Positions 6,629 to 24,421 of a stretch of 64,000 bases of DNA are shown here, in pieces. Both the position numbers and the translations under genes were made by a program. Source of the DNA: Moheibacter lacus (GTDB lineage Bacteria; Bacteroidota; Bacteroidia; Flavobacteriales; Weeksellaceae); the NCBI RefSeq assembly GCF_014042165.1, contig NZ_JACDZE010000001.1, forward strand, positions 62,001 to 126,000, read 5' to 3'. The notes under the pieces are model-generated. The model made no database searches. It had not been told where the DNA came from and was given only the letters and a program-made list of their open reading frames with translations. Every line of letters begins with the position of its first letter. Position 1 is the first letter of the stretch.

Positions 6629-9127
6629 ATGGCAATCAAAAAATCTGAATTATACAGCTCGCTATGGGCTTCTTGTGACGAATTACGTGGCGGAATGGAC
6701 GCCTCTCAATATAAAGATTATGTGTTGACGATGCTCTTCGTGAAGTACATTTCTGATAAATACAAAAACGATCCTTTTGGGGCGATTGAAGTGCCTGAGG
6801 GCGCATCGTTTGACGATATGGTGGCGTTGATTGGAAATCCTGAAATTGGCGATAAAATTAATAAACAGATTTTAAACCCGATTAAAGAAGCCAACCGGTT
6901 GACCGATTTCCCGGATTTTAACGACGAAAGCAAATTAGGAAAAGGAAAAGATTTGGTGGATACGGTGTCGAACTTGATTCGTATTTTCAACGACCAAAGC
7001 TTGGATTTTACTAAAAACTCAGCCGAAGGCGATGATATTCTGGGCGATGCTTACGAATTTCTGATGCGTCATTTTGCCACAGAATCGGGTAAATCCAAAG
7101 GGCAATTCTATACGCCTGCAGAAGTTTCGCGGGTGTTGGCAAAGGTCATTGGCATCAATGCGAACAATTCATCCAACCAAACCACGGCGTATGACCCTAC
7201 CTGCGGATCGGGATCGTTGCTCTTAAAAGTGGCCAACGAATCGGGCAAAGACATCACACTGTACGGACAAGAAAAAGAAACCACAACCGCCAATTTGGCC
7301 AAGATGAATATGATTTTGCACAATAGCCCAACGGCAGAGATTGTGGCAGATAATACCTTGACCCGTCCGGCCTATAAGGAAGCCGATGGCAGTTTAAAAC
7401 GTTTCGAATATGTAGTGGCCAATCCTCCGTTTTCGTTGAAAAGCTGGAGCAATGGGGTGAATGTAGAGGCCGACGAATTTGATCGTTTTGCCTTGGGTGT
7501 TCCGCCCGAAAAGAACGGCGATTATGCCTTTTTACTGCACATCATCAAATCCTTGAAAAAAACAGGTAAAGGTGCGGTGGTATTGCCACACGGCGTATTG
7601 TTCCGTGGAAATGCCGAGGGCGAAATCCGTAAAAACATCTTGAAGAAAGGCTACATCAAAGGCATTATCGGTTTGCCGGCCAACTTATTTTACGGAACGG
7701 GCATTCCCGCCTGTATCATTGTGTTGGACAAAGAATATGCCGAGCACCGCAAAGGGATTTTTATGATCGATGCGAGCAAGAATTTTGTAAAAGACGGCAA
7801 CAAAAATCGTTTGCGTGAGCAAGACATTCGCAAGATAACCGATGTATTTAGTGCACAAGAAGAATTGCCCAGATACAGCCGAATGGTGCCAATGAGTGAA
7901 ATTGCAGATCCTAAAAACGATTATAACCTGAATATTCCACGCTATATCGATACCCAAGAAGCAGAAGATATACAAGATATTGCGGCGCACTTGCAAGGTG
8001 GCATTCCGGAGCGCGATGTAGCGGCTTTGGACGCGTATTGGAAAGTGTACCCCAATTTAAAACAAAGTTTGTTTACGCCTTTGCGTGAGGGCTATGTACA
8101 GCTAAATGTCGCCGCAACAGATATTAAATCCACGATTTTTAATCATCCCGAATACCAAGCGTTTGCTACGGCTTTGGCAGATACGTACACAAATTGGTTG
8201 CAAACCCAAGCGCAACGTTGGTTGGCAGTCGGCGAAGGCAGCAACCTCAAAGAGTTGATTGCACAAATGAGCGAAGATTTATTGCAAGCTTTTGCCGATA
8301 ATCCTTTGGTGAGCAATTACGATTTGTACCAACACCTGATGAGTTATTGGCAAGAGGTAATGCAAGACGATTTGTACATTATTTCGTTGGACGGATGGAA
8401 AGCCGGAAACGAATGGAACCGTCAAGTGATAAAAGGCAAAACGGGCAAAGATGGCAAAGCCGGCAAAGACAAAGAAGTGGCCGGATTGGCAGGTGTACAA
8501 GGCCGATTGATTGCTGCCGAATTGTTGGCAAAGGTGTATTTTGAAGACCTACAAGTGCAAATCAATGCACAAGAACAAGTGATAGAAAGCGCACAAGCAA
8601 GCTTGACAGAGATTGAGGAAGAACAAAGCAGCGAAGACGGATTGTTTGCTGATTTGGAAAAGATTAATGCCACCGAAGTAGGAAAACTTTTGAAACAATT
8701 ACAACCTACCAAAAAGGCAAAAGCTGCTGCGAAACACGAATACGCAATGGTAGCAGAACCGGAAGCGGTTTATGAGACCAAAAGCAGTTTTGATGTATTA
8801 GAAGAATACGTAGCCTTAGACATTTCCATTAAAAAAGCCAATGCCGAAATCAAGAAACTGCAAGCGGAATTAGAAAAAGCCGTGATCGAAAAGTACGCTG
8901 AGCTGAGCGAAGAAGAAATAAAAGACCTCTTGGTGAACCAAAAATGGACAGCTCATTTGCAAAGTACTTTGGTGCAAGAACAAGACAAAATCTCGCAAGC
9001 CTTAACCCAACGCATCAATGCTTTAGCCGAACGTTATGCGACGACCTTAGGCAAGTTGGAAGCTGAAGTTCTCGAAGCCTCCAATAACGTAAAGTCTCAC
9101 CTTGAAAAAATGGGATGGATATGGTAA
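6629..9127 (+). CDS. hsdM: Type I restriction-modification DNA methyltransferase HsdM, long form
   Basis: An 832-residue N6-adenine methyltransferase subunit. The HsdM N-terminal helical domain (residues 5-140) is followed by the catalytic domain. That domain has SAM motif I at about 187-195 (DPTCGSGSLLL) and the catalytic NPPF at about 265-268. It methylates adenine in the target chosen by HsdS, which marks self DNA. The chain is much longer than the roughly 500 residues common in the family. Residues 470-832 form an added helical/coiled-coil region with a Gly-Lys-rich patch near 608-622 (GKTGKDGKAGKDKEV). The hsdS start lies inside its last codons. A near-consensus -7 box (TATTTTCG, 6575-6582) precedes it. 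It is first in a six-gene run. Confidence 0.95.
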   Translation: MAIKKSELYSSLWASCDELRGGMDASQYKDYVLTMLFVKYISDKYKNDPFGAIEVPEGASFDDMVALIGNPEIGDKINKQILNPIKEANRLTDFPDFNDESKLGKGKDLVDTVSNLIRIFNDQSLDFTKNSAEGDDILGDAYEFLMRHFATESGKSKGQFYTPAEVSRVLAKVIGINANNSSNQTTAYDPTCGSGSLLLKVANESGKDITLYGQEKETTTANLAKMNMILHNSPTAEIVADNTLTRPAYKEADGSLKRFEYVVANPPFSLKSWSNGVNVEADEFDRFALGVPPEKNGDYAFLLHIIKSLKKTGKGAVVLPHGVLFRGNAEGEIRKNILKKGYIKGIIGLPANLFYGTGIPACIIVLDKEYAEHRKGIFMIDASKNFVKDGNKNRLREQDIRKITDVFSAQEELPRYSRMVPMSEIADPKNDYNLNIPRYIDTQEAEDIQDIAAHLQGGIPERDVAALDAYWKVYPNLKQSLFTPLREGYVQLNVAATDIKSTIFNHPEYQAFATALADTYTNWLQTQAQRWLAVGEGSNLKELIAQMSEDLLQAFADNPLVSNYDLYQHLMSYWQEVMQDDLYIISLDGWKAGNEWNRQVIKGKTGKDGKAGKDKEVAGLAGVQGRLIAAELLAKVYFEDLQVQINAQEQVIESAQASLTEIEEEQSSEDGLFADLEKINATEVGKLLKQLQPTKKAKAAAKHEYAMVAEPEAVYETKSSFDVLEEYVALDISIKKANAEIKKLQAELEKAVIEKYAELSEEEIKDLLVNQKWTAHLQSTLVQEQDKISQALTQRINALAERYATTLGKLEAEVLEASNNVKSHLEKMGWIW

Positions 9128-10362
9128 AGCAAGGGTATAAACAAACCGAAATTGGGGTAATTCCTGAGGATTGGGAGGTTTACACAGTACGAGATTTAAT
9201 TACTCTTTTAACTGATTATGATGCTAATGGAAGTTTTTCATCAGTTGCAGAAAACGTTAAATCATATAATTATCCAGAGTACGCTTGGTATGTAAGATCA
9301 ACAGATTTAGAAAATAAAACTGATTTGTCTAATGTCAAATATGTAGATAAACCTTCATATGACTTTTTGAAGAAAACTTCTTTATTTGGAGGGGAATTAT
9401 TATTTCTTAAAAGAGGCGATATTGGCAATGTATATCTATTTGAAATGAAAACAAATAGGGCAACTTTAGCTCCTAATTTGTATTTGTTAAAACTAAATGA
9501 TATTTCATCATCTAAATATTTATATCAATATTTTATCAGCGAAAATGGTCAAAAGCAATTAAAAAGTAAAAATGCAGGTTCAACATTAGGAGCATTATAT
9601 AAAGATGATGTAAAAGCTATGCTAGTCCCACTTCCCCCATTAGCCGAGCAAGAAGCGATCGCTGCGGCATTGTCGGATGCGGATGCGTGGGTTGAGAGCT
9701 TAGAACAACTCATCGCTAAAAAACGCCTCATCAAACAAGGCGCTATGCAAACCTTGCTGACACCAAAAGATGATTGGGAAGTGAAGAAGTTGGGGGAGGT
9801 AGCATCGTATAGACGAGGAAGTTTTCCTCAACCATATGGATTAGATAAATGGTATGATGATACTAATGGAATGCCTTTTATTCAAGTTTTTGATGTTGCC
9901 AAGAATAGAAAATTAAAAATTGATACTAAAAGAAAAGTTAGTGAGTTAGCTCAGCCAATGAGTGTATTTGTTCCAAAGGGGACTATTGTATTAACTATAC
10001 AAGGTTCTATTGGACGAATTGCATTAACACAATATGATGCATATTGTGATAGAACTTTGTTGATATTTGAAAAAATAGATAGTAGTTTATATAAATTCTA
10101 TTTTTTGCTAGCCGTAGAACAAATTTTTGAAATTGAAAAAGAAAAAGCTCCGGGAGGTACAATTAAAACAATTACAAAAGAAGCATTGTCCGATTTTAAA
10201 ATAACATATCCAAAATCCCTTTCCGAGCAAGAGCGTATTGCAAGGATTTTATCGGATATGGATGCGGAGTTGGAGGCCTTGGAGCAGCAATTAGCGAAAG
10301 CGCGGCAAATCAAACAAGGGATGATGCAGGAATTGTTGACCGGGAGAACGAGGTTGGTGTAG
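9115..10362 (+). CDS. hsdS: Type I restriction-modification specificity subunit HsdS
   Basis: A 415-residue specificity subunit with the classic two-repeat plan. Target-recognition domain 1 covers about residues 20-175. A conserved helical spacer follows, with LAEQEAIAAALSDADAWVESLE and KRLIKQGAMQTLLTP. Target-recognition domain 2 covers about 220-365. A second conserved helical region holds SEQERIARILSDMDAELEALE and RQIKQGMMQELLTG. The two spacers set the distance between half-sites of the bipartite DNA target. The recognition domains are clearly more AT-rich than the conserved spacers, a sign that recognition domains have been swapped in. It overlaps hsdM by 13 bases; a second ATG at 9121 is an equally possible start. 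The recognised sequence cannot be deduced. Confidence 0.95.
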   Translation: MDMVKQGYKQTEIGVIPEDWEVYTVRDLITLLTDYDANGSFSSVAENVKSYNYPEYAWYVRSTDLENKTDLSNVKYVDKPSYDFLKKTSLFGGELLFLKRGDIGNVYLFEMKTNRATLAPNLYLLKLNDISSSKYLYQYFISENGQKQLKSKNAGSTLGALYKDDVKAMLVPLPPLAEQEAIAAALSDADAWVESLEQLIAKKRLIKQGAMQTLLTPKDDWEVKKLGEVASYRRGSFPQPYGLDKWYDDTNGMPFIQVFDVAKNRKLKIDTKRKVSELAQPMSVFVPKGTIVLTIQGSIGRIALTQYDAYCDRTLLIFEKIDSSLYKFYFLLAVEQIFEIEKEKAPGGTIKTITKEALSDFKITYPKSLSEQERIARILSDMDAELEALEQQLAKARQIKQGMMQELLTGRTRLV

Positions 10363-10394
10363 ATAATTGTAAAAAACTAAATGATAAAATCAAA

Positions 10395-13300
10395 ATGAAA
10401 CATATCTCCTTACGGTTAGCTTGGCACGATGACGGCTGGAACGGTCACATTTGTAAAAATCCTAGAGCAAATACCCATTGTGTGGGACAACATTCTTATC
10501 CGGGCGATTTGATTTCGCAGGCCAGGGATTTAGACTGGGAAGAGCAAGAAAATGTAGCAGGATGTCATTGTTCGGCAATTGACGGTATACCACCTTGTTC
10601 TTACAGCATCAATGCTTTTGGAAACGCCGCAATCAAAGGAGAAAGTAATCCGCCTGATTTCTTTAAGGATAATTCCAAAGGCATAGCGTTTGAAATTCCG
10701 GCTTCTACAGCCTGTATTTGGCCTTATGAACAGATGTATTCTGACGATATTAAGGCTGATAAAGGTTCATCGCAGACCTATAATTATACGAAAAGATTGG
10801 CTGCAGCTAAAAATTTCTTTAAAGAAGTAACACCAAACGAAAGTCTTGTATTTTATTATGCCAACAAAAGCAATCCCTTCAGCGAAGAGGATGATAGAAA
10901 TTTCGTGTTGGTAGGTATCTCCAGAATTAAAAAAATTGGAGAGGTAATGTATTATGAAAATGTATCTGAAGAAAATAAAAAGAAATATGCAGATGGGTTT
11001 GTATGGCAGTTGCCTATCACGTCTAAATTTCCTGACGAAGGATTTGCAATTCCTTACCATAAGTACCGAGACCAACCTGAAATATTAGAAAGGATAACGT
11101 ACATACCAGAAATTTCAGACAATTTTAAATACGGCACCAAACATATATCTGATGATGATGCTTTGATTTATGTGGAACGTTTAACAGAAATTGTAGATTT
11201 TTTGATAAATGTAGATGATACAGAAAATTGGGTAGAACGAAAAACCTGGTTGGTATCCTTGCAAAATGAACTTTGGAAAAAAAGGGGGCCATATCCTGGG
11301 CTAAATTCTGCTTTAGAAGCTTTGGAAATGCCAGAATTTATGGATTTCTATAAAGAAGCGGTAGCCAAAAGCGAAGGAATTAAAGCAAAAGAAACTATTT
11401 TCAGATATCTCAATGATAAAAAACTTACGGATTTTGTAGATAATTCCATTCATCCAGCTACACTAAAATCTTACCAGAAAAACTGGTATATCAAGTTGGA
11501 AAACCAAAATAAGCGAGATTTAATTGAAAATGTACTTTCAAGAATTGATTTGAAAACCAGCCAGATCAAGCTGATATTGGATGATAAAAGGGAACAAAAT
11601 AATATTTACTCATCTATCGATGCAATCCTTGAAAATCCTTTCATTCTTCAGGAGGAATACATTGGTACTGATGCAAGCGATATCATCAACTTTGAAAAAA
11701 TAGACCACGCTGTTTTACCTTCTCAGGAGTTGAGTTTGGATATTCTGGTTCCCAAAGATGATAATAGAAGACTGCGTGCTTTGATTATTGATTGTCTCAA
11801 AAAAGAGGACGTTCATTCATTCGTAGATCAAGTAACATTGTTAGAAAAAGTCAATCAAAAAATAAGCGTATATCCCGATTGGAAAAACATTCAATTCAAT
11901 AAAGGATATATTGATTTTGAAAAGGACTTTTTTGAAGAGAAGCTCTTTTTTAGAACAGCGGAGAATATCACTTATGTCTATCTGAAAGACATCTACGAGC
12001 AAGAGCGTATAATAGAAAAACAAATTCGAAATTTGGTTGGCCGGTTGCCAATAGATGTGCAAAGACCGTTTAACGAAGCGAAATGGCAAAATGAAATATT
12101 CAAAGCGGATTGTAATTTGGATAGAAAAGCTCCAGAAGAATATCGAACTGCTGTTGAAAGTCAGGTTTTGGTATGTAAACAAATTTTTAGAAAGCCTATT
12201 AGCATTTTATCGGGTGCAGCAGGCACTGGTAAAACTACAGTAATCAATGCCATTATTAAAGCCATAAAATTCAGTTCAAATAATACTGAAAAGTGTTTGC
12301 TTCTAGCGCCTACTGGTAAAGCGTCAGACAGAATGAAAGAAGCAACTGGAGAAGAGGCGAAGACCATTCATCAATTTTTGGCAAGTAAAGGTTGGCTCAA
12401 TCCTAATTTTACTTTCAAAAAAGAAGGCGGCAAAAAAGAGAGTGATATCACAACCTACATTGTTGATGAAACTTCAATGATTGACTTGACCTTAATGGCA
12501 ACCTTATTCAAAGCCATTAATTGGGATTATGCCAAGCGCATCATATTTGTGGGAGACCCCAATCAGTTACCACCAATTGGGAAAGGGAAAGTTTTTGCAG
12601 AAACTATTGAATTTATCAAAGAGATTGACGAGGAAGCGTACGGTCATTTGCGGGATAATATGCGCCAGATGGAAAATAAGATCGACGGCAAGGGCACAGG
12701 CATTATTGATTTGGCTTCTATTTATGTGCAAGAAGATGGACATTCTTTTGAAAGCAAATCTGACACAGAAGATATACTGAAAAAGATAAATGAAAATGGT
12801 GAATTAGATCAAGATGTAAAAGTTCTTATTTGGGAAGATAATGTTTCTTTGGAAGAACAACTAATCTCTTCTATAAAAAATGATATGGAAGAGAGCGGAA
12901 ACGATAATATTATGAATTATCAAGTGGTTTCGCCCTATCGGGGAGAATTATTTGGAACTGAGCACTTAAATAAAGTACTTCAAACAAATCTGAATAGTAA
13001 GAATGCTCAAAAAGGACTGCTCGGCGGAATAACCTATTTTGATAAAATTATCCAATTTACAAATCGAGCTGGTTTAAACTCTTACTGGTATAATAATTTC
13101 AAAATCGATAAATGGGAACGTGTTGCTGTTTATAATGGAGAAATTGGTCAGGTATGGATGCATCCATTTGACAAAAAATCCTATCATTATTCTACTAACA
13201 TCAAGAGATTTAATGTTAAATTCAACAGACAGCCCCAATATTATATTGAGTTTAATAACGAAAATCAAGTAGTTGAAAATATCGAATTAGGCTATGCTAT

Positions 13301-13913
13301 TTCAGTTCATAAATCTCAAGGGAGCGAGTTCAGTTATCTATATTTAATTATACCACAATCTAAACAAACGTTACTTTCCACAGAGTTGATCTACACAGGA
13401 ATTACTCGTGCAAAAACAAAGCTTAGAATTTTTATTGAGAAAGACTTGAGTATTCTTCAGTCGTTAAGAAGACCAGAACGCTCAAAATTAAAATTTATAA
13501 ATTCTTCCTTATTTGCGTTTAGACCATTGCCGATGGAATTTTCAAATATGGGAGCCTGGTATGAAGAAGGAAAGGTTCAAGCAACTTTAAGTGAATATTT
13601 GGTGAGAAGTAAATCTGAAGTGATTATTACCAACCTCCTGGTTACTAATGAAATGACCAGCTTTAAATATGAAACGCTATTGTATGCTCCTGATAAAACA
13701 TTTTATCTCCCAGATTTTACAATCAATGTCAATGGGAAAACATACTATTGGGAACACGTAGGAATGTTGCATATACCGAAATATAAACAGCGCTGGGAAG
13801 AGAAGCAGAAATGGTATGAAAAGCATTTTCCAAATCAATTGTTGGTTACTTACGAAAGTGAAAACCTCACGAAAGAAGCCCAGAGAATAATTGACGAGAT
13901 AAAAAGAAATTAG
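10395..13913 (+). CDS. Large RecD-like SF1 helicase with N-terminal Cys cluster and C-terminal PD-(D/E)XK-like nuclease
   Basis: An 1172-residue protein with three visible parts. The N-terminus has a Cys/His cluster (ICKNPRANTHC, then GCHCSAIDGIPPC, residues about 19-67) that could bind metal; I know no family for it. A RecD/TraA-like SF1 helicase follows. It has Walker A GAAGTGKT near 606, TPTGKA-like motif Ia (APTGKASD), Walker B VDETSM near 690, motif III GDPNQLPP near 720, motif V HKSQGSEF near 972 and motif VI YTGITRAK near 1001. The C-terminus resembles a PD-(D/E)XK nuclease: RSKSE near 1070, YLPDF near 1103, YWEHVGM near 1117. It lies 32 bases after hsdS and 17 before the next giant gene, inside a type I system where neither is normal. 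A defence role is inferred from this position. The gene is more AT-rich than hsdM. Confidence 0.85.
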   Translation: MKHISLRLAWHDDGWNGHICKNPRANTHCVGQHSYPGDLISQARDLDWEEQENVAGCHCSAIDGIPPCSYSINAFGNAAIKGESNPPDFFKDNSKGIAFEIPASTACIWPYEQMYSDDIKADKGSSQTYNYTKRLAAAKNFFKEVTPNESLVFYYANKSNPFSEEDDRNFVLVGISRIKKIGEVMYYENVSEENKKKYADGFVWQLPITSKFPDEGFAIPYHKYRDQPEILERITYIPEISDNFKYGTKHISDDDALIYVERLTEIVDFLINVDDTENWVERKTWLVSLQNELWKKRGPYPGLNSALEALEMPEFMDFYKEAVAKSEGIKAKETIFRYLNDKKLTDFVDNSIHPATLKSYQKNWYIKLENQNKRDLIENVLSRIDLKTSQIKLILDDKREQNNIYSSIDAILENPFILQEEYIGTDASDIINFEKIDHAVLPSQELSLDILVPKDDNRRLRALIIDCLKKEDVHSFVDQVTLLEKVNQKISVYPDWKNIQFNKGYIDFEKDFFEEKLFFRTAENITYVYLKDIYEQERIIEKQIRNLVGRLPIDVQRPFNEAKWQNEIFKADCNLDRKAPEEYRTAVESQVLVCKQIFRKPISILSGAAGTGKTTVINAIIKAIKFSSNNTEKCLLLAPTGKASDRMKEATGEEAKTIHQFLASKGWLNPNFTFKKEGGKKESDITTYIVDETSMIDLTLMATLFKAINWDYAKRIIFVGDPNQLPPIGKGKVFAETIEFIKEIDEEAYGHLRDNMRQMENKIDGKGTGIIDLASIYVQEDGHSFESKSDTEDILKKINENGELDQDVKVLIWEDNVSLEEQLISSIKNDMEESGNDNIMNYQVVSPYRGELFGTEHLNKVLQTNLNSKNAQKGLLGGITYFDKIIQFTNRAGLNSYWYNNFKIDKWERVAVYNGEIGQVWMHPFDKKSYHYSTNIKRFNVKFNRQPQYYIEFNNENQVVENIELGYAISVHKSQGSEFSYLYLIIPQSKQTLLSTELIYTGITRAKTKLRIFIEKDLSILQSLRRPERSKLKFINSSLFAFRPLPMEFSNMGAWYEEGKVQATLSEYLVRSKSEVIITNLLVTNEMTSFKYETLLYAPDKTFYLPDFTINVNGKTYYWEHVGMLHIPKYKQRWEEKQKWYEKHFPNQLLVTYESENLTKEAQRIIDEIKRN

Positions 13914-13930
13914 ATTATAAATATGGTTCA

Positions 13931-16900
13931 ATGAAAATAAAAGATATCCAACAATATAGAGAAGTTTTCAAAAATGTTATACGTAATGTGCCAGATCGCA
14001 ATGAAAATTTTATTGGGAATTATTATTATGACGAAGTACAACAGAAAAGGATAAGAGGATGGTTTGATCTGTATTTTGGCCAAGCGGATGGTAATTCGAC
14101 CGCCCAAAAAGGTGTTGAAAATAAACTGATTTCTTTCTTGGATATGGCAAGGGATGGCCAAGCTATTTATGAATTTTTACAAAATGCAGTAGATGCTGGT
14201 GCTTCCAAATTCTTAATGTTTTATAAAACCGATCCTGATACTAATGAAGATTATTTATTGGTCATTAACAATGGGGAAATGTTTACTACGGAAAGCATCA
14301 TTTCTATTTTAAACATTGGTTCTTCTACCAAAACAAATAACTCTGAAAAAATCGGTCAATTTGGTATAGGATTTAAACTTGCGCATCGATTGGTTGGGAA
14401 AGACAATGCTATTGCAGAACTCTTGAATGATTTAAATGGTCCTATTCTGTATAGTTGGAAAAACAATGAAATTGCAAACTTACAAACGCCACTATCGGTC
14501 GAGGAATTTAAATATTCTTTTGATGACAAGAGCCACAAATTAACAGTTCAGGACGAGAATTCTTGGCTTTTCAAAATCCTTCTTACTACTTTTCCTTGTG
14601 CTTATAATGAAAAGCCTGTGATATGGGATGGTGAGGTAGTTTCAGAACCACCCTTCTCTGAAAAAGATTTAAATTTTTTACAGGGATGGCTTAATGAAGA
14701 AAGCTTACAACTACATCTTAAAAACGACTTCGAACAAGGCGCTCTTTTCTTGATGAAACTAGGTGAAGGTAAATTAAAAGAGATTAAGGATGAACCTAAT
14801 CTCAAAGAAGGTGTTCGCTTTTCACTTGCGATTTTAAAAGAAACATCAGGAAATGGAAAAGGGCTATCTACTGCCGTAATCAATGAGGAGAAGGTGTATC
14901 ATCCTGAATTAGATTTCCATAAAATCACCATCCCAAAAGAAGATAAAGATCAATATGCTTATGTTCGATTTGGGAAACCTTATGATGAATTAGACCAACA
15001 TCAAATCAATGAACTAGCTAATGAAAGTGCTATTCAAATTTTGTTTGGTTTCAAAAATTATAATGAAATTGCTGATTTTTTTAAAGGCTCACCAAGTTTT
15101 TATCTTTATTTTCCTGTAAGCCAAGAGGTTCACAATTTTAATTATATTTTTCATTCAAACGCTTTGTACAAAGGTTCCAGCAGGGTCTTTTTACAAGCTG
15201 GTGGAGGTAAAGGACTTAATGAGCGACTGTTTGAAAAGACTGTCGAGCTTTTGGAAAAAGATTTACGAAAATTATTTAATGAGGATCTTAAAAAGTTCAA
15301 AAACTTATATAGTGCCTTTTTAACATCTGGAAAAACTCAAAATAATGAAAGTGAGTGGATTACAAATAGCTACACACGCCCAATAGATGAAATGCTTAAA
15401 CGCATTGTTCCAGTAAAAAAGGCTGAAGGGGAATTATTGTTATTAGACAGTACATCAACCCGCAGCCCAATTTACTTGATCGATACCGAAATCGGAATTC
15501 TGGAAGATCAGTATTATTTCCTGTTTGACAAGGCTGAACTTTCTCTGGAATATTCCTTTAAGGCAATTGATAAATTGAATTTAAAATCATACAACATCTA
15601 TGATATACTAAATATTGAAAATATAAGTAATCGTCTGAATCATTGGATTGATCATGATGAAGATAAGGCTAAACTGTTTTATAAAGAACTTACAGAGAAT
15701 CAAAATACGCATCGTCCTAATTCTCTTACTGATGTTCAGAAGGCAAATCTTGTAAAAATTAAGTGGATTCAATTATCAGATGATAAAACATTTAGCACAA
15801 TTCAAGAAATAGAAAAAAACACGCCTGTTTTTTTATTGTCTAAGACGCTGTACTCAGTAAAGGAAATTTTCCACAAACTAAATCTCTCTACAAGTAAATA
15901 TGATTTAAGTGCTTTTATTGATAAATATAGGGGTAACTTTCAACAAAATGAACTGCGCCAGTTTACGTACAGTACACTGACTTCTATGTTTAGCGAGCAA
16001 GTTGAAACAAACGATTTAGACCAATTAGATAATAATGAACGATTTGCTTTATTCGAGGCTTTCAGAACTTTGGATGATAATCCTGGAGGAAGATTAAGCT
16101 TATTAAAATTATACAAAAATAGACTAGGCAACTACCAACCTTTAGGTCGATTAGCAAATGTTCAAGGCGGATTGTTAGGGTTGTTCTCAATTGACACTTC
16201 CCAGTTAACTGGAATTGATAGTAGGATTTTACAAAACTATTTAAAAGTTGATGGGACTGTACTTTATGAAAAGATTTATTATCCTCAATGGAAGGATTTA
16301 TTGGAGTATGTCATTACTAACACAGGTAGTATCACACCTTCTAAAATCGTATCCGAAATCAATTATGCTTTTAATCATTCAAACTGGTCTGAGAAAGAGA
16401 CACATTTACTATCCTCACACCAAGTTGTAATATGCAATGGTAAAGTTTTAGAAACGAGTAATATTCTCATTCCGCACAATGGGGAAATCGAAGATTACGG
16501 AAAAAAGCAGGAAAGTTTAGAGAAGTTTTATAAAACATATTTACCAGACCAAAAATTCTTAGAGATATTTACCACAAACAGTCCATTTGGATATAAAACA
16601 GAATTAAATGACCCTGAACTTCTATTAGAAAATATTTCGGAACAAGATGTGTTTGAAGTATTGAACCTTGCTCGTCAGTTCCAATTAGATTTTTTCGAAG
16701 ACAACACAATAGAGAAACACAATAATTCTTACAATATCATTTCATCACGCAACAAACAGCAATATTTTTCAGAGGATGATAAAATAATTGATTTGATGGA
16801 TGATTTGTCTACAACAAAATACGAATTATTACCGAATGCGTTTAGAGAATTTGCCGAAATGGTAAGTACGAGAGGTATAGAGCTTCACAAGTTATTCATC

Positions 16901-19900
16901 AGTAATAGTAGCATCTATGAAAATAATGGAACTCTTCACAAACTTCTGGAAGTTGCCGTTTCATTTGCTGAAGAATCACGTATAGAATTGTTTGAAAAAC
17001 TTGAAAAAATTACACTTGACTTTGACGAAGAGGCTGATATAATTAATAAATTGATCCAGTTTATTAATTCAATAAGACGTGTTGATATTGATGAATTGCA
17101 GTCTAAAGTTGTTTTATCTAGGGGTACAGATGAAATCGTTTTAAATGTTTTACGCCCATCAATTTCAACGTTAACACTAAATCAACGCGAAATCGATTTT
17201 GAAAAAATATTTGGAGCAAAAGATATTGATAACATTGCGACAGATTTTTATAATAAATTTATAGACCGATCAGAAATTGATAAGAAATTTTTTATAAAAT
17301 TATTAAAACTCGAAAACGTAACTGATAATGGAGAATTAAAAGATGCATTTCTCAATTCCTTAAATGATGGGAACGAAATAGTTACAATTTATCAGTTGTA
17401 CTATGCGGTATTCTCAGGAGCGTTTTCAAATGATGAACTTGGACAATTTTACTTAATAAATATTGATGGTGAATTTTACAATTTGGATCATTCGTGGATT
17501 TTTTCTGAAGATTTTGACACTAATCTTTTCAAAGATGAAAATTTGCTTCACCATTGCTACGCTGAAAATCGTGAGATGCTAACTGAGGTTATTCATTCTG
17601 AGAACACTGGTATCAAGTTTTTCAGGATGAATGATGTAGCTGATTATTCGATTCTAAATGCTGAAGTAGATTACGTCCTTAGCCAGAAACTTGATTTTTT
17701 ATACGATGTTCATAGTAAAACGCTTTTGCAAGATCGTGTAATAAATTATATAGAAATAAATGAATTTTTAGGTATGACTTCCTATAATAAAATTATTTCG
17801 GAAGTTTTCGAACAAGAAAATAATCTATCTCGGGAATTACTTGATTGGTATGCCGGTGATTTAAGTAAAAAAACTTTTCTTGAAGAATTGGGTTACAAAT
17901 TTGATGATAACCCTGCCATTTTGTTTTTGAACGCTTTAGTACTTAATAATGAAAATTTTTCGGAGTTCAACATTAACGTATTTGAAAAAGATGATATTGA
18001 GCTCATTGTCGATTATTTATATCAAAATGAGATTTCATTTAGTTTAAGCAATAGGACTTTGATTAATAAGATGGTCGAACTAATTAAGATTTATTGGAGC
18101 TATCAACAAAATAGAATTTTATGCTATTTAGATGGATCAAAGCTTGGTGTTGAGAGCTCAGAGGAACTCTATGATTTTGATTATAATATTATTGATCAGA
18201 TTTTAAGTAATTCTAATAGTGAAATCTTGACTCAATTTTTTAAAAAATACACAATACCTTATAAAGAAATTGCAGATTTATTTGGTGATGAAGAATTAAA
18301 TATAGTTGAATTAAACTTTGAAATTATTCAAGATAGGTCAAATCATTTGAACGAATATTTTTATCACGAATGGAAAAAGAGCGTAAAAAATATCAATATA
18401 TACAAAGGAGATTTTTTAGTTTACAATATGTATGCTGAAATTGATGGTGAAGATGTGTGCCTATGCGAGATTAGTTATCAAGATGATTTTTGGTTAAATG
18501 CTAATGGAAATCAGTTAGCATTATACTACACAACCAACAAGTCTCTAAAATCTTTGGTAGATCATTTTACTTCAGATGATTATGATGAATATGAAAGTTA
18601 CAATTTGAGAATTTCTCTTAAAAACTTGGAAGAGCTTTATAATTCCTTTAATGCGACAATCTCAGAAGTTCTAGAAAATACAGATATAGAAGAAATCAAA
18701 GGATATTTTCAATCACAGATCGAGAAAGAGGAACGTAGAGTCCATCGGGAAGCAATTACATCTGAAATTAGAGAGACAGCCAAGTATTCAAAATCGTGGT
18801 TTATAAAATACTTGGAGTACCTCAATACAGTTACAGAGAAAAACAGCTCGCAAGATTTGCAGTTTTTAAGATTTAGTAAAATCGAGAAAACAGATAAGCC
18901 TAATTTCTACAAACTATCTGGTTGCAGTGGTGCAATACCTGAGAACATTGACGAATCTACTAACGTAAATATTAAAATAATTTCAGCCAGTCAAAGGCAA
19001 TCTTATAGTATCCAAAATATTTCGCAGAAGAATCAAACAGTACTAATACAACTTAACCAAATTTTACCCGATACTTTGGTTGACAATTTTTTCGTAGGAG
19101 AAATCACCTATTCTCCAACAATTGATTTATTAGGACGATTGACAAATGCTTTTCATTATTTAGAAGATTGGGAAGATATAAATGCGAAGTTTCCTCCAAT
19201 TCAGTATATTTATGGTCCACCTGGAACCGGGAAAACTACTTCACTTAAAAATAAAATTATCGGCTTAACAAACGACAATCCCAATGTAAAGATTCTTGTT
19301 CTGACTCCAACCAATAAGGCTTGTGATGTATTAGCCGAAAAGCTTTATGAAGAAAATTATGATAGCTTTATACGTTTATCTTCTCAGACATCCACAGCAT
19401 TGCCGGAAGAAGTATATACGAATGATTTGAATGATGTTTCACTAGAAAATTTAAATGTGCTTATTTCTACGATTCATAGACATTCTTACTTCAAAGTAAA
19501 TACTGATCATTCTCAGTTCTATTTATACAATTATGAAGAATGGGATTATGTTATTATCGACGAAGCGTCTATGATTAATCTGCCATATATAACATTTAGT
19601 TCCTTAATTAGCCTACAAAACAACCCCAATTGTAAGGTAATTATAGCAGGTGATCCAAAACAAATTCCCCCCGTACCAGAATTGAAAGATGCAGAAAGAG
19701 AAGAAATAGGAGTAGAAACGGAGAATATCTATTCAATGTTTGGACTTAAAAGCTTTGATAAAGAAACTCAAAAATCTGAAATAAGAGATATTGATAAGGT
19801 TGATAATTTAGACATACAATATCGTTCATTGCCTGAAATCGGTAATTTATTTAGTAATTTTTCTTATGAAGGTAAAGTAAGTTCAAATCGATCGTTGGAT

Positions 19901-20608
19901 TCTAAAAGAGCATTACCTAAGCAATTACAAAATCTGTTGTCCGATTCAATTACATTTTTAGATGTTCCGCTGGAAAGAGATAACCAGCTTTTTAGTGTCA
20001 ATAAATTGATTCACAGTTCATACCATCTTTATTCAGGTTTGTTGGTTTACGAATTGATTCGATTTTTTGATAAACATAATAATGATGAAAAGCAGTGGAC
20101 GATTGGAATTATTTCACCTTACAAAGCACAAGCTGTTCTAGTCAGTCGATTAGTCGTAGATTTAAAATTAAAAACTAATATTCGTGTCTACGCTGATACT
20201 GTTCACGGCTTCCAAGGCGATGAGTGTGATATCGTGTTTTTTATATGTAACCCGAGTAGCTATCAATCAAAACCACACGATAAATCTTTACTGGCTAATG
20301 ATTTTATTTATAACGTCGCTATTAGTAGGGCTAAGGATTATTTGGTAATCGTAAATCCGTTTGAAAAGCAGACCGAAAATAAATTCTTAAACCGATTGAA
20401 AACTATACATTCCAGTTTTACACAGAAAAATGTTGTAATTCAAAAGTCGAAAAGTTTTGAAAATTTAATTTTCAGTAATAAAAATTTCTTGGATGAAAAC
20501 ACATTTATAACAAGGCACGACGATGTAAATGTATATACTTCGGATGTCTATAGGTATTATATTAAAAAAAATGAGATTTCTATTGATTTTCAAATAACAA
20601 AAGCTTAA
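13931..20608 (+). CDS. Giant GHKL ATPase / UPF1-like SF1 helicase fusion protein
   Basis: A 2225-residue protein with two separate nucleotide-binding engines. The N-terminus is a GHKL (Hsp90/MutL/sacsin-like) ATPase: N-box EFLQNAVDAGA at about 80-90, an NNGEMF box near 112, and GQFGIGFKLAHRL near 141. Residues about 450-1700 match no domain I can name. The C-terminus is an SF1B helicase of the UPF1/Dna2 kind: Walker A GPPGTGKTTS near 1761, TPTNKACD, Walker B IIDEASM near 1876, GDPKQIPPVPE, QYRSLPEIG, SPYKAQA, HGFQGDE and VAISRAKDYL near 2130. It lies between the RecD-like gene and hsdR. The coding sequence is very AT-rich compared with hsdM and hsdR. Function inferred: ATP-driven nucleic-acid sensing or remodelling in defence. 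It is not a known type I subunit. Confidence 0.85.
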   Translation: MKIKDIQQYREVFKNVIRNVPDRNENFIGNYYYDEVQQKRIRGWFDLYFGQADGNSTAQKGVENKLISFLDMARDGQAIYEFLQNAVDAGASKFLMFYKTDPDTNEDYLLVINNGEMFTTESIISILNIGSSTKTNNSEKIGQFGIGFKLAHRLVGKDNAIAELLNDLNGPILYSWKNNEIANLQTPLSVEEFKYSFDDKSHKLTVQDENSWLFKILLTTFPCAYNEKPVIWDGEVVSEPPFSEKDLNFLQGWLNEESLQLHLKNDFEQGALFLMKLGEGKLKEIKDEPNLKEGVRFSLAILKETSGNGKGLSTAVINEEKVYHPELDFHKITIPKEDKDQYAYVRFGKPYDELDQHQINELANESAIQILFGFKNYNEIADFFKGSPSFYLYFPVSQEVHNFNYIFHSNALYKGSSRVFLQAGGGKGLNERLFEKTVELLEKDLRKLFNEDLKKFKNLYSAFLTSGKTQNNESEWITNSYTRPIDEMLKRIVPVKKAEGELLLLDSTSTRSPIYLIDTEIGILEDQYYFLFDKAELSLEYSFKAIDKLNLKSYNIYDILNIENISNRLNHWIDHDEDKAKLFYKELTENQNTHRPNSLTDVQKANLVKIKWIQLSDDKTFSTIQEIEKNTPVFLLSKTLYSVKEIFHKLNLSTSKYDLSAFIDKYRGNFQQNELRQFTYSTLTSMFSEQVETNDLDQLDNNERFALFEAFRTLDDNPGGRLSLLKLYKNRLGNYQPLGRLANVQGGLLGLFSIDTSQLTGIDSRILQNYLKVDGTVLYEKIYYPQWKDLLEYVITNTGSITPSKIVSEINYAFNHSNWSEKETHLLSSHQVVICNGKVLETSNILIPHNGEIEDYGKKQESLEKFYKTYLPDQKFLEIFTTNSPFGYKTELNDPELLLENISEQDVFEVLNLARQFQLDFFEDNTIEKHNNSYNIISSRNKQQYFSEDDKIIDLMDDLSTTKYELLPNAFREFAEMVSTRGIELHKLFISNSSIYENNGTLHKLLEVAVSFAEESRIELFEKLEKITLDFDEEADIINKLIQFINSIRRVDIDELQSKVVLSRGTDEIVLNVLRPSISTLTLNQREIDFEKIFGAKDIDNIATDFYNKFIDRSEIDKKFFIKLLKLENVTDNGELKDAFLNSLNDGNEIVTIYQLYYAVFSGAFSNDELGQFYLINIDGEFYNLDHSWIFSEDFDTNLFKDENLLHHCYAENREMLTEVIHSENTGIKFFRMNDVADYSILNAEVDYVLSQKLDFLYDVHSKTLLQDRVINYIEINEFLGMTSYNKIISEVFEQENNLSRELLDWYAGDLSKKTFLEELGYKFDDNPAILFLNALVLNNENFSEFNINVFEKDDIELIVDYLYQNEISFSLSNRTLINKMVELIKIYWSYQQNRILCYLDGSKLGVESSEELYDFDYNIIDQILSNSNSEILTQFFKKYTIPYKEIADLFGDEELNIVELNFEIIQDRSNHLNEYFYHEWKKSVKNINIYKGDFLVYNMYAEIDGEDVCLCEISYQDDFWLNANGNQLALYYTTNKSLKSLVDHFTSDDYDEYESYNLRISLKNLEELYNSFNATISEVLENTDIEEIKGYFQSQIEKEERRVHREAITSEIRETAKYSKSWFIKYLEYLNTVTEKNSSQDLQFLRFSKIEKTDKPNFYKLSGCSGAIPENIDESTNVNIKIISASQRQSYSIQNISQKNQTVLIQLNQILPDTLVDNFFVGEITYSPTIDLLGRLTNAFHYLEDWEDINAKFPPIQYIYGPPGTGKTTSLKNKIIGLTNDNPNVKILVLTPTNKACDVLAEKLYEENYDSFIRLSSQTSTALPEEVYTNDLNDVSLENLNVLISTIHRHSYFKVNTDHSQFYLYNYEEWDYVIIDEASMINLPYITFSSLISLQNNPNCKVIIAGDPKQIPPVPELKDAEREEIGVETENIYSMFGLKSFDKETQKSEIRDIDKVDNLDIQYRSLPEIGNLFSNFSYEGKVSSNRSLDSKRALPKQLQNLLSDSITFLDVPLERDNQLFSVNKLIHSSYHLYSGLLVYELIRFFDKHNNDEKQWTIGIISPYKAQAVLVSRLVVDLKLKTNIRVYADTVHGFQGDECDIVFFICNPSSYQSKPHDKSLLANDFIYNVAISRAKDYLVIVNPFEKQTENKFLNRLKTIHSSFTQKNVVIQKSKSFENLIFSNKNFLDENTFITRHDDVNVYTSDVYRYYIKKNEISIDFQITKA

Positions 20609-20663
20609 TATTTTTTATTATTAAGGCCTATCTTAGTTTAGGGAAATAACTAAAAAAAGAATT

Positions 20664-23600
20664 ATGATTAACCCAATCGAACGCAATACCCAAAATCGTA
20701 TCATTCAATTGTTTCAAGAGCAATTGGAGTACACCTATTATGGCAATTGGGAGAAGCGTGAACATAATAGTAACGTAGAGGCGGATATTTTAAAAAAGAA
20801 TCTATTAAAACGTGGGTATTCGGAAACTTTAGCCAATAAAGCGGTGAAGGAATTGACGGATTTGGCAATGACCAGCGCAGGGAATGTGTACCATCGTAAT
20901 AAAACCTTATATGAAACTATTCGCTATGGTGTGAAAGCCCGACCCGAATTGGGTGAACAATTTGATACTATTTTTCCGATTGATTGGAAAGACTGGCGAA
21001 ACAACGATTTTGGCATTGCAGAAGAGGTGACCTTAACCAAGGGTCAGCACGTTCGTCGCCCCGATATTGTGTTGTATGTAAATGGGATTGCATTAGGTGT
21101 TTTGGAGTTGAAACGTGGGACAACAGATATTGCCGAATCGGTAAATCAATCGATATCAAATCAGAAAGAACATTTTAACGAGTGGTTTTATTCGACTGTT
21201 CAATTTATATTGGCCGGGAATAATACCCAAGGATTAAAATACGGAACCATCGAAACGCCTGCCAAATATTTTTTAAGTTGGAAAGAAGATGAACACGACA
21301 ATACAGCGTATAAATTAGATAAATACCTGAAAAAATTGTGCGCTAAGGAGCGTTTCCTAGATATTATCTATAACGCTGTGGTGTTTGATGCGGGGGTGAA
21401 AAAATTACCTCGACCACATCAGTATTTTGCCTTGAAAGCCTCGCAAGAATTTATACGCCGGAAAGAAGGCGGCATCATTTGGCATACCCAAGGATCGGGC
21501 AAATCGTTGATGATGGTGATGTTGGGGAAATGGATATTGGAAAATGTACCCAATTCGCGATTGGTGATATTGACCGATAGAACCGAGTTGGATGGCCAAA
21601 TTGAGCGGGTGTTTAACGACGTGGGCGAAACTGACATTGCCAAAACCCGTTCGGGAAAGGAATTGATGCAATTTTTGCAAGCCTCTAAACCTCGATTGAT
21701 TTGTTCCTTGATTCATAAATTCGGAAATAAATCCGAAACCGATTTCGATGCGTTTTTAAAAGAATTACAAGAAAATCCGGTACAAACCCAAGGCGAAATT
21801 TTTGTTTTTATAGACGAAGCCCACCGTACGCAAGGGGGTAAACTCAATCAAATTATGAAAGCGGTATTGCAAAACGCCGTTTTCATCGGATTTACAGGAA
21901 CTCCTTTGTTGAAGCAAGATAAAAAAACAACGATGGATGTTTTTGGGCGATACATTCATACGTATAAATTTAATGAAGCGGTTGAGGACGGTGTCGTGAA
22001 AGATTTGATGTACGAAGGACGTTCTATTGAACAGCGATTAACCTCTCAAACAAAAGTCGATCAGTGGTTTGATTCGAAAACAGCTGGATTAAATGATTTC
22101 CAAAAAAATGAGCTGAAAAAGAAATGGGGAACGATGCAAAATGTGTTGAGCTCAAAGAGTCGAATGGAAATGATTGTGTCGGATATCTTGTTGGATTTCT
22201 CTACCAAGCCCCGGTTGAAATCGCAAATGGGAAATGCAATTTTGGTGGCATCAAGCATTTACGAAGCGTGTAAATATTACAACTTGTTTTTACAAACCGA
22301 ATTAAAAAACAAATGCGCAATTATCACTTCTTATAATCCCAATGCAAGAGATATTTCATTGGAAGATACGGGCGCAGATAACGAAACCGATAAGGAATAT
22401 ATCTACAATACCTATGTAGAATTATTGAAGAATGTAAGTGTCAAAGGCAATAAATCCAAAACAGAAACCTACGAAACCGATTCGAAAGAGCAGTTTAGAA
22501 AAGAGCCGGCACGGATGAAGTTATTAATTGTCGTTTCAAAACTATTAACCGGATTTGATGCGCCACCGTGCTCGTATATCTACATCGATAAAAAGATGCA
22601 AGATCATACCTTGTTTCAAGCCATTTGTCGCGTGAACCGTCTGGATACCGATGATAAAGATTATGGCTATATCGTAGATTACATGGAATTATTTGGCAAT
22701 GTAACCGATGCCATTAATGTATATACTTCAGAGTTAGATTCGGAAGGTTTTTCGAAAGAAGAGGTCGAAATTCATATCAAAGACCGTTTGAAGATAGCCA
22801 AAGATAGATTGTGGACAGCGATGGAAACCGTAGAAAGCATTTGCGAAAATGTCGCTTTGCCTAAATCACAATTGGATTATATTCATTATTTCTGTGGCAA
22901 TACAGAAAATGAAGACGATCTAAAGGCTAATGAATACAAACGTATGGCATTGTACAAAGCCATTGTAGAATATATCCGCGCCTATGCGAATCTGAAAGCT
23001 GATTTTTCGGAGGCTGGATTTACGGAAAAAGAAATCAACACGTTCCATCAGAAATTAGATGATTATTTGAATCTAAGAGAAGTCATCCGCATTGCCAGTG
23101 GAGAAACCATTGACTTGAAAGCCTATGAAGCCGATATGCGTTTCTTGATTGATACCTACATTAAAGCAGAAGAATCGGAAACGATTAGTCCTTTTGAAGA
23201 TATTTCCTTGTTGGATTTGTTAGAAACCAATATGGAAAAAGCCATAGATTCATTGCCCAAGGGCGTCAAAGGGAATAAAGAAGCTGTTGCGGAAACGATT
23301 GAGAATAATGTACGAAGTAAAATTGTAGAAGAACATCTGTTAGACCCAAAATACTTTGATCAGATGTCTGTTTTATTGCAGGAATTGATTGAACGCAGAA
23401 AACAAGAATCTATCAATTATCAACAGTATTTAGTAGAAATGGCGGAACTGATTCGTCAAGTCAATAAAGGCAAAACAGATGACGTTCCCTCGTCATTAAA
23501 CACCAAAGGTAAAGTCGCTTTATATCACACGTTGGATAATGATGAGACTTTAGCCTTAGCTTGTGAAGAGGCTGTTCAATATGCCAAACAAGAAGGTTTT

Positions 23601-23717
23601 CGAGAAAATATTGCCAAGCAGAAATTGCTGAAGAAAGCCATATTTAACGTGGTAAATGACGTGAACAAAGTAAACGAAATATACAAAGTTATCGAGGCTC
23701 ATAAAGACGAATATTGA
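20664..23717 (+). CDS. hsdR: Type I restriction endonuclease subunit HsdR
   Basis: A 1017-residue restriction and translocation subunit of normal family length. The N-terminal PD-(D/E)XK nuclease shows RRPDIVLYVNG and VLELKRG near residues 131-152. Two RecA-like SF2 motor domains follow, with Walker A HTQGSGKS near 275, DEAH at about 383, a GFTGTPL motif III and QAICRVNR motif VI near 652. A long helical C-terminus would dock on the methyltransferase core. HsdR pumps unmethylated DNA through the complex and cuts at a distance. It is separated from hsdM/hsdS by about 10.3 kb of foreign-looking ATPase genes, with a 55-base gap upstream. Its stop shares one base with the start of the metallopeptidase gene. 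Confidence 0.96.
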   Translation: MINPIERNTQNRIIQLFQEQLEYTYYGNWEKREHNSNVEADILKKNLLKRGYSETLANKAVKELTDLAMTSAGNVYHRNKTLYETIRYGVKARPELGEQFDTIFPIDWKDWRNNDFGIAEEVTLTKGQHVRRPDIVLYVNGIALGVLELKRGTTDIAESVNQSISNQKEHFNEWFYSTVQFILAGNNTQGLKYGTIETPAKYFLSWKEDEHDNTAYKLDKYLKKLCAKERFLDIIYNAVVFDAGVKKLPRPHQYFALKASQEFIRRKEGGIIWHTQGSGKSLMMVMLGKWILENVPNSRLVILTDRTELDGQIERVFNDVGETDIAKTRSGKELMQFLQASKPRLICSLIHKFGNKSETDFDAFLKELQENPVQTQGEIFVFIDEAHRTQGGKLNQIMKAVLQNAVFIGFTGTPLLKQDKKTTMDVFGRYIHTYKFNEAVEDGVVKDLMYEGRSIEQRLTSQTKVDQWFDSKTAGLNDFQKNELKKKWGTMQNVLSSKSRMEMIVSDILLDFSTKPRLKSQMGNAILVASSIYEACKYYNLFLQTELKNKCAIITSYNPNARDISLEDTGADNETDKEYIYNTYVELLKNVSVKGNKSKTETYETDSKEQFRKEPARMKLLIVVSKLLTGFDAPPCSYIYIDKKMQDHTLFQAICRVNRLDTDDKDYGYIVDYMELFGNVTDAINVYTSELDSEGFSKEEVEIHIKDRLKIAKDRLWTAMETVESICENVALPKSQLDYIHYFCGNTENEDDLKANEYKRMALYKAIVEYIRAYANLKADFSEAGFTEKEINTFHQKLDDYLNLREVIRIASGETIDLKAYEADMRFLIDTYIKAEESETISPFEDISLLDLLETNMEKAIDSLPKGVKGNKEAVAETIENNVRSKIVEEHLLDPKYFDQMSVLLQELIERRKQESINYQQYLVEMAELIRQVNKGKTDDVPSSLNTKGKVALYHTLDNDETLALACEEAVQYAKQEGFRENIAKQKLLKKAIFNVVNDVNKVNEIYKVIEAHKDEY

Positions 23718-24421
23718 TGCGAAAGGAACAATTGAAGATTGGGCAGGTGGATATAGAGGTAACTTTCAAGCCGATAAAAAATTTGCATCTGAGCGTGCAT
23801 CCGCCAAAAGGGCACGTCACTATTGCTTCACCCGAATTTTATGATTTGGAGAAAGTGAAAATTTATGCAGCAACAAAATTAGCTTGGATAAAAAGAGAAC
23901 AACGCAAATTTAAAGAGCAACCTCGCGAAGAACCTCGATTGTATGTCAACCGGGAAAGTCATTATTTATTTGGTGAGCGCTATTTGTTAAAATTAATAGG
24001 GGCTACAAAAAATAAGGTGCAACCTGAGGGAAAGAATCTTACGATTTACACCAAAAACACGAATGACAAGGCTTTATTAGAAAAACAATTGTACGCTTAC
24101 TATCGAAATGAATTACGAGGACGATTGCAAGTAATGATTGAAAAGTATGCAAAACAAATGGATATTGAGGTGCCTGCTTTTAAAATTCGTAAGATGAAAA
24201 CCAAGTGGGGCAGCTGTGCAACAGATCATTCACGGATCTGGTTTAATATTGAGCTAGCTAAAAAACCATTGGACTGCATTGAGTATATTGTCGTACACGA
24301 ATTAGTTCATTTATTAGAACGAAATCACAACAAGCGTTTTATTGCGTTGATGGATCAATTCTTACCCAATTGGCGATTGCAAAAAAAAATATTGAATGAG
24401 CTGCCTTTATCAGCAAATTAA
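23717..24421 (+). CDS. YgjP-type zinc metallopeptidase (M48/DUF45 family)
   Basis: A 234-residue predicted zinc protease. The catalytic HELVH motif lies near residue 193, and a third ligand region is likely in NHNKRF just after it. KWGSC upstream (near 163) is also typical of the YgjP/DUF45 family. I chose the ATG at 23717, whose A is the last base of the hsdR TGA stop; a TTG one codon earlier is less likely. The one-base overlap implies translational coupling to hsdR. Genes of this family are often found beside type I hsdR genes, so it probably belongs to the system, perhaps in turnover of a component. The substrate is unknown. No signal peptide is visible. Confidence 0.88.
   Translation: MRKEQLKIGQVDIEVTFKPIKNLHLSVHPPKGHVTIASPEFYDLEKVKIYAATKLAWIKREQRKFKEQPREEPRLYVNRESHYLFGERYLLKLIGATKNKVQPEGKNLTIYTKNTNDKALLEKQLYAYYRNELRGRLQVMIEKYAKQMDIEVPAFKIRKMKTKWGSCATDHSRIWFNIELAKKPLDCIEYIVVHELVHLLERNHNKRFIALMDQFLPNWRLQKKILNELPLSAN

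Follow-up and report, generated by a model that had tools for sequence, protein, structure and literature searches.

Gene content of the locus

The locus considered here is a six-gene operon at positions 6629–24421 of a 64,000 nt stretch of the Moheibacter lacus genome (contig NZ_JACDZE010000001.1, positions 62,001 to 126,000; the whole stretch is referred to as the window), in which two giant genes, here called P1 and P2, lie between the hsdS and hsdR genes of a type I restriction system. These two genes probably add a second, plug-in layer to the defence against viruses; a system of an entirely new kind is less likely. The genes are (lengths in amino acids, aa; SF1, superfamily 1):

6629..9127, + strand: hsdM, type I N6-adenine methyltransferase subunit, 832 aa (Pfam N6_Mtase, 353.9 bits, and HsdM_N; TIGR00497; PADLOC MTase_I, 1193 bits)
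9115..10362, + strand: hsdS, specificity subunit, 415 aa (Pfam Methylase_S in two stretches; PADLOC Specificity_I)
10395..13913, + strand: P1, gene 3 and first cargo gene, PDC-S68 family protein, 1172 aa (PADLOC PDC-S68)
13931..20608, + strand: P2, gene 4 and second cargo gene, giant GHKL ATPase and SF1 helicase, 2225 aa (Pfam SACS, HATPase_c_3, AAA_11 and AAA_12; full-length relatives in genomes G443 and G033)
20664..23717, + strand: hsdR, type I restriction and translocation subunit, 1017 aa (Pfam HSDR_N, SWI2_SNF2 and T1R_D3; TIGR00348; PADLOC REase_I, 1616 bits)
23714..24421, + strand: YgjP-like metallopeptidase, 235 aa, TTG start (Pfam YgjP-like, 198 bits; synteny)

The six open reading frames (ORFs) run in one direction without internal stops, and their positions, frames and families agree with the original prediction, which was made from the sequence alone. 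The spacing of 13 to 55 bases given there holds for the 13-base overlap of hsdM and hsdS and for the gaps (32 bases from hsdS to P1, 17 from P1 to P2, 55 from P2 to hsdR), but not for hsdR and the metallopeptidase gene, which overlap by 4 bases. The curated cut-offs are exceeded both by HsdM (TIGR00497, 271.2 against 242.75) and by HsdR (TIGR00348, 501.3 against 284.55). By sequence, the type I restriction operon is complete: hsdM, hsdS and hsdR are all present with intact frames, and a YgjP-type metallopeptidase accompanies them; methylation and restriction are the operon's predicted activities. The pair is extra to this complete system, as had been proposed, and consists of a helicase-nuclease (from profiles and a model of the P1 nuclease fold) and a GHKL/SF1 giant. 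A pseudogene reading of the pair is ruled out by its intact frames and motifs.

P1, a PDC-S68 protein with a predicted nuclease domain

The two giants had been thought to lie outside existing models, which profile searches against PADLOC contradict for both. P1 scores 1652 bits against PDC-S68, with residues 2–1169 of 1172 aligned to model positions 3–1200 of 1202 (PADLOC prints no cut-off for it), an end-to-end match in which no difference from the family was found. It is also RecD2-like, with a TIGR01448 score of 278.6, below that model's cut-off of 500. PDC-S68 is listed as a single-gene system. The PADLOC PDC families are candidates picked by guilt-by-embedding, i.e., by being embedded in other defence systems (PMC12988326). 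No published domain description of PDC-S68 was found, and the name is absent from the papers listed by one literature search. Conservation was assessed in an alignment of 14 full-length sequences, the window's included, and three parts can be distinguished:

10395..11264, + strand: P1 N-terminal region, residues ~1–290, possible PUA-superfamily (YTH/EVE-like) modified-base reader (low-confidence model, conservation)
12162..13439, + strand: P1 SF1B (RecD2-type) helicase core, residues ~590–1015 (Pfam AAA_19, AAA_30 and UvrD_C_2)
13572..13910, + strand: P1 C-terminal PD-(D/E)XK-type nuclease, residues ~1060–1172 (AlphaFold2 [AF2] model, structural comparison, invariant columns)

In the helicase core G607, G610, G612, K613, D691 and E692 are invariant (14/14 sequences), as are S1072, E1075, D1107, E1120, H1121, G1123 and K1137 in the C-terminal block. 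The latter is invisible to Pfam, and its AF2 model has a pLDDT (predicted local distance difference test) score of 84.2. The best match to this model in the VIA structural comparison is Bax1 (Z 9.9, root-mean-square deviation [rmsd] 3.5, 107 residues), with further nuclease matches to I-Bth0305I (Z 9.4), TnsA (8.4) and VRR_NUC (7.9), all of which we take to share the PD-(D/E)XK fold. Foldseek alone gave no E-value below 0.001 for the P1 C-terminus, the best (0.0039) again being Bax1, and searches of PDB sequences with P1 N- and C-terminal profiles gave none below 0.09. As modelled, the P1 C-terminus folds like a PD-(D/E)XK-type nuclease, its acidic residues are conserved, and catalysis is predicted.

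The N-terminus has a set of near-invariant residues (H3, R7, W10, H11, W15, N16, G17, C20, N26, C29 and C68), and the structure model of the first 400 residues has a pLDDT of only 58.2. In the VIA comparison of this model, 49 of 50 rows are YTH, EVE or ASCH proteins or VcaM4I, the exception being DrmAB; PH1033, MJECL36, 2eve, 2g2x and VcaM4I are presumably all members of the YTH/EVE/ASCH (PUA) superfamily. The list is led by Mmi1, through its YTH domain (Z 8.4, rmsd 2.9, 125 residues). A small number of YTH proteins account for many of the rows, and by the tool's own guidance models that lack a clear match usually reach a top Z of 7 to 8. The top six Foldseek rows are of the same type and not significant (E 0.05 to 0.28, best 0.053), and Pfam supports a reader fold in none of the 14 members. 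A YTH/EVE-like modified-base reader is a lead, put forward far more tentatively than the nuclease fold, and base binding is putative.

P2, a Tiamat-like giant with a helicase

P2 is divided into two parts:

13931..18946, + strand: P2 residues 1–1672, Tiamat (TmtA)-like part, GHKL site at about residues 74–162 (PADLOC TmtA PDLC03970)
19193..20365, + strand: P2 C-terminal Upf1/MkoA-like SF1 helicase, residues ~1755–2145 (Pfam AAA_12, 85.7 bits; PADLOC MkoA)

The first scores 465 bits against TmtA PDLC03970 over residues 1–1672 (model positions 1–1491 of 1552), and P2 also exceeds the NCBIfam P_loop_sacsin cut-off (62.6 against 50). The helicase matches PADLOC MkoA with 144 bits over 315 residues. 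Profile matches in the PDB are to sacsin at the N-terminal end and to Nam7/Upf1, Smubp-2 and Dna2 at the C-terminal helicase. Tiamat is listed as a single-gene system.

The hsdS-hsdR slot in related operons

The region between hsdS and hsdR, referred to here as the slot, was compared across relatives of the window's hsdR. A search of 197 genomes of the family gave 13 hsdR matches, the window's own included, and the order hsdM-hsdS-[slot]-hsdR-YgjP is kept in all 12 of the other genomes, which places the arrangement outside what chance would give. Among 395 genomes sampled from the phylum, 42 have an hsdR match with an E-value of at most 1e-200. Two of them, G000 and G095, belong to the family count, G327 (stop inside) and G330 (contig start) were left out, and 38 loci (L069–L106) were compared. 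Eighteen of these, lacking hsdM or hsdS in view, were excluded from the slot count, leaving 20 and, with the 13 family loci, a total of 33, window included. L002, at a contig edge, is outside the slot counts.

In 29 of the 33 loci the slot is filled, meaning that the hsdS-hsdR gap contains one or more ORFs of at least 100 aa. Slot ORFs of at least 100 aa are in operon direction in every case in the 13 family loci (29/29); over the 33 loci 70 are and 8 are not. The neighbouring junctions are tighter, with an hsdM-hsdS gap of at least 300 bases in three of 33 loci and an hsdR-YgjP gap of more than 100 bases in one, and a YgjP gene is 3′ of hsdR in all 33.

The commonest cargo class among the slot relatives is GmrSD-like, found in 10 of the 33 loci (by blastp clustering, with profiles checked for L048, L051 and L058), seven of them in the family (L048, L051, L052, L054, L055, L058 and L059). 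Two slots have a Tiamat-like gene without P1: in L050 (genome G494) it stands alone and was recognized by profile, while in L056 it lies behind a 330-aa gene and was assigned by 43% identity to that of L050. The L057 slot has a P1 relative and two small genes, without P2; that of L049 a single 128-aa PDDEXK_3 gene; and that of L053 no ORF of 60 aa. Two distant operons, in G053 and G421, likewise have P1 relatives in the interval from hsdS to hsdR. Apart from P1 and P2 themselves, profile scans covered 24 slot ORFs, drawn from 19 of the 28 other filled loci, and 16 matched a family. A gene of ~200–220 aa is shared by L054 (14969–15619), L057 (15173–15832) and L088 (13808–14413), in slots otherwise with different cargo; the L054 and L057 copies were scanned and have no Pfam match.

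Because slot contents differ among related loci, the pair is exchangeable and not fixed cargo. A fixed composite with hsdMSR, as first envisaged, is ruled out in its six-gene form by this variation, with Tiamat-like genes without P1 in L050 and L056 and a P1 relative without P2 in L057, and is further contradicted by a pair in G443 (described below) that has no hsdMSR next to it. The slot behaves as a natural cassette site, in which one restriction frame carries GmrSD-like, Tiamat-like or PDC-S68 relatives or other nucleases, depending on the species; the hsdS-hsdR slot has already been proposed in print as a hotspot.

In Pedobacter kyungheensis (L002, 47–523), a P1 nuclease-domain stump of 114 residues, 96% identical to the C-terminus of the window's P1, is directly before an hsdR 83% identical to the window's. 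These sequences suggest that cargo is also lost, as well as transfer between distant Bacteroidota.

Recurrence of the pair

At the survey thresholds, P1 was found in seven of the 395 phylum genomes and P2 in seven, and each in three of the 197 family genomes; these searches score only a few top candidates in each genome and can therefore miss relatives, as they did with the P1 relative of G443. A scan of genome contigs with P1 as a single sequence gave one locus, a P2 profile search of 211 genomes of the order gave the window's own genome only, and no relative was found when viral contigs were scanned with the P2 profile.

On inspection of its locus, G443 was found to have a full-length P2 relative (34% and 45% identity over two matched parts) followed after 33 bases by a full-length P1 relative (26%), the reverse of the window's order. 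The pair starts 193 bases past a run of BREX (bacteriophage exclusion) genes, namely PglXI, BrxHI, a partial PglZ match and a weak BrxA match, and there is no hsdMSR beside it. The region (L065, L107–L109; C1, about 294500–319830) also has a 1219-aa gene upstream. The third full-length P2 relative, in G033, is downstream of BrxC, PglX, PglZ and BrxL with four genes between, so that both full-length relatives outside the window follow BREX genes. In G297 (L034, 5060–10411) a BREX operon carries a shorter P2 relative, of 1783 aa, between its PglX and PglZ genes. On an IMG/VR viral contig (L110, 896–12670), a HEPN_Swt1-SNF2 helicase, a sacsin-GHKL protein, a P1 relative and an ADP-ribosylglycohydrolase are encoded in a row. 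The check for recurrence that the original prediction had called for gave a positive answer in G443, and chance insertion without recurrence is weakened by that pair and by L110.

In a tree of 19 P1 proteins the three GHKL-paired members do not cluster, and three changes are needed to account for them, which may equal one gain and two losses of GHKL pairing. Judged from these sequences, the pairing is recurrent but not obligatory. The lack of clustering is in favour of a reading in which the slot is simply a safe, expressed landing site, with P1 and P2 independent defence genes linked functionally neither to each other nor to hsdMSR. The IS200-like transposase gene in one slot is also in keeping with such passive accretion, and so is the low GC content of the cargo (0.351 for P1 and 0.314 for P2, below 0.438 for hsdM and 0.383 for hsdR), although composition says little because hsdS (0.349) is as low as P1. 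However, P1-GHKL adjacency is repeated in the window, G443 and L110, the three tree changes could be one gain and two losses, and the operon spacing is close. We regard accretion without any functional link as quite unlikely.

Restriction and methylation genes near P1

Nineteen full-length P1 loci were counted, leaving out the partial P1 of L115. A DNA methyltransferase is in view at 13 of them (the window, L003, L004, L005, L022, L024, L025, L026, L057, L067, L108, L111 and L114); in L108 this is a PglXI ~14 kb from P1, beyond the P2 relative. L113 has an HsdR-like gene near P1, and a neighbour in L112 has HSDR_N and RAMA domains. In an IMG/VR control, HsdM or HsdR relatives are present at three of five P1-family loci against none of 73 other RecD2-like loci that the same scan gave, the control loci being shorter (median 14.5 against 19.5 kb). 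Next to relatives of P1 or P2 lie, among others, systems of types I, ISP, IIG and III as well as BREX PglX/PglXI. These methylation systems mostly make N6-methyladenine.

Two loci have further genes of note. In L027 (2500–7197; G130) a 1565-aa protein with a DarT domain adjoins the P1 relative, and a 789-aa gene matches PDC-S07 and PDC-S41 in its two parts. The island in L003 (1114–35079; Hymenobacter plasmid pHsw1) has a DrmD-like helicase, the P1 relative, type III methyltransferase and restriction genes, a GHKL-SF1 protein, a primase-polymerase and a DinG-like helicase.

Dependence of P1 and P2 on HsdM/HsdS marks is possible. A composite gated by methylation would have P1 read the HsdM adenine marks on self DNA, with unmarked or wrongly marked DNA unwound and cut and P2 serving as the gate. 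The range of systems just listed is in favour of it, as are the recurrence of the pair after BREX genes in G443 and the resemblance of the modelled P1 N-terminus to YTH domains, which are m6A readers. Against it, the reader fold is of low confidence, four of the 19 P1 loci have no restriction gene among the genes examined, the pair exists without adjacent hsdMSR, and slot cargo exchanges freely. We consider such gating unlikely. It is quite improbable, in our estimation, that P1 and P2 would form a portable module for different adenine-methylating systems (type I; BREX in G443), in which a YTH-like reader of N6-methyladenine, fused to RecD2-motor and PD-(D/E)XK-nuclease domains and under the control of the GHKL-helicase protein, would destroy DNA with missing or wrong marks. 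Use of host methylation by P1 and P2 is testable because of the tentative YTH/EVE-like fold of the P1 N-terminus.

Comparison with known systems

A close arrangement in gene order is the RRDM island of enteropathogenic E. coli, rptR-hsdM-hsdS-darTG2-hsdR-M48 metallopeptidase (PMC12255303). It has the same gene frame as the window, with foreign defence genes between hsdS and hsdR and a metallopeptidase after hsdR, but its cargo is the DarTG2 toxin-antitoxin and not P1/P2. No ORF longer than 48 aa was found in hsdM direction within 450 bases before hsdM, hence no RptR there. DarTG2 (PMC12255303) and TgvAB of the VPI-2 type I operon of Vibrio cholerae (PMC11411939) both lie inside type I operons, and the clusters to which they belong give E. 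coli protection from phages. The VPI-2 operon has two-gene cargo inside a type I operon, as in the window. TgvAB is GmrSD-like, as is the commonest slot cargo of the relatives, whereas P1 and P2 have no GmrSD domain by Pfam.

P2 residues 1–1672 align to most of one TmtA model, and a TmtA-like protein occupies the same slot in G494. For P2 the aligned part ends at position 1491 of the 1552 in the model, with an SF1 helicase after it; the G494 protein has instead a NOV_C match near its end. The P2 helicase is like MkoA of Mokosh. Mokosh has a PLD (phospholipase D)-family nuclease, fused or as a partner, and no PLD match was found in the six operon genes (Pfam, E 0.01). Hma, which the original prediction had put forward as the closest in idea, was rejected as nearest relative, there being no Hma model among the PADLOC families listed for P1 (16), P2 (9) or hsdR (7), nor among the best 25 of 40 for HsdM. 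PglZ, BrxC, BrxL and PglX of BREX are likewise absent from the PADLOC families listed for the six genes (best 25 of 40 for HsdM, best 25 of 126 for HsdS). Tested against MADS, the operon genes fall below the curated cut-offs for both MAD2 (43.1 against 720) and MAD5 (57.8 against 400).

Embedding of an accessory gene in a type I locus is also seen in EcoprrI, where PrrC is activated when Stp inhibits the enzyme (PMC12707154; PMC2610378). On this precedent the pair could be a guardian that the type I complex keeps silent until a phage protein inhibits that complex, whereupon the pair would arrest or kill the infected cell. PrrC is an ABC-ATPase anticodon nuclease, however, and P1 and P2 have no PrrC, ABC-ATPase or anticodon-nuclease match in Pfam or PADLOC; moreover, P1 relatives are beside unrelated restriction types, each of which a contact-based guard would need to recognize. 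A guardian role seems quite improbable.

Defence genes embedded in type I operons are a known kind of arrangement, and both giants match existing models. New, relative to the literature searched (a 2024 preprint by Payne on embedded defences is outside it), are the recurrent association between a PDC-S68 protein and a GHKL-helicase giant, the proposed domain plan of P1, and the comparison of the slot in this lineage.

Surroundings of the operon

Purine-synthesis genes start just past the operon end. No hsdR match at E 1e-200 was found in five genomes of the same genus, two of them 76 and 81% complete. A clean empty site was not seen in the same-genus comparison, in which the purN neighbours in G402, G429 and G445 are unlike the window's and the Omp85 gene neighbours in G402 and G429 also differ. 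A regulator with a WYL/WCX domain is encoded on the minus strand at 3530–4441 of the window, divergently and ~2.2 kb upstream of hsdM. Regulators of this type control some defence operons.

Interpretation

The matches to PDC-S68 and Tiamat-like models and the slot context agree with the proposal that the pair probably serves defence. We lean somewhat toward the reading that this is a complete type I operon (hsdM-hsdS-hsdR-ygjP) with two exchangeable defence genes in its slot, which would act as a second layer beside restriction, working next to the enzyme and not as its subunits. P1 would be a DNA-checking helicase-nuclease, whose N-terminus might read a DNA feature, perhaps a base modification, whose RecD2-type motor would move from a DNA end or single-stranded stretch, and whose C-terminal PD-(D/E)XK-type domain would cut DNA. 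P2, as a Tiamat-like GHKL ATPase, would close on ATP and control the Upf1-like helicase. Expressed with the restriction operon, the two could provide a second layer when a phage escapes HsdR.

Several points weigh against this. PDC-S68 is a candidate family only, with putative anti-phage activity, and the reader fold depends on a model with a pLDDT of 58, for which neither Foldseek nor Pfam gave a significant match. At the survey thresholds P1 and P2 are both listed only in the window's genome. Four of the 19 P1 loci (L007, L023, L027 and L110) have no restriction gene among the genes examined. In the slots, eight of the 24 ORFs scanned matched no family, and one slot has the transposase gene mentioned above. 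In nine of the 18 excluded phylum loci at least 7 kb upstream of hsdR is in view with no hsdM or hsdS relative, so that the hsdM-hsdS-hsdR order is not universal for this hsdR subfamily.

Overall, the pair links PDC-S68 and Tiamat-like proteins, two large families, in a recurrent association, and a domain plan is offered for PDC-S68, with a possible base reader, a helicase and a nuclease. The variety of the slot provides a matched set of loci in which defence genes can be sought and tested, and in which possible cooperation between restriction and its cargo can be addressed.

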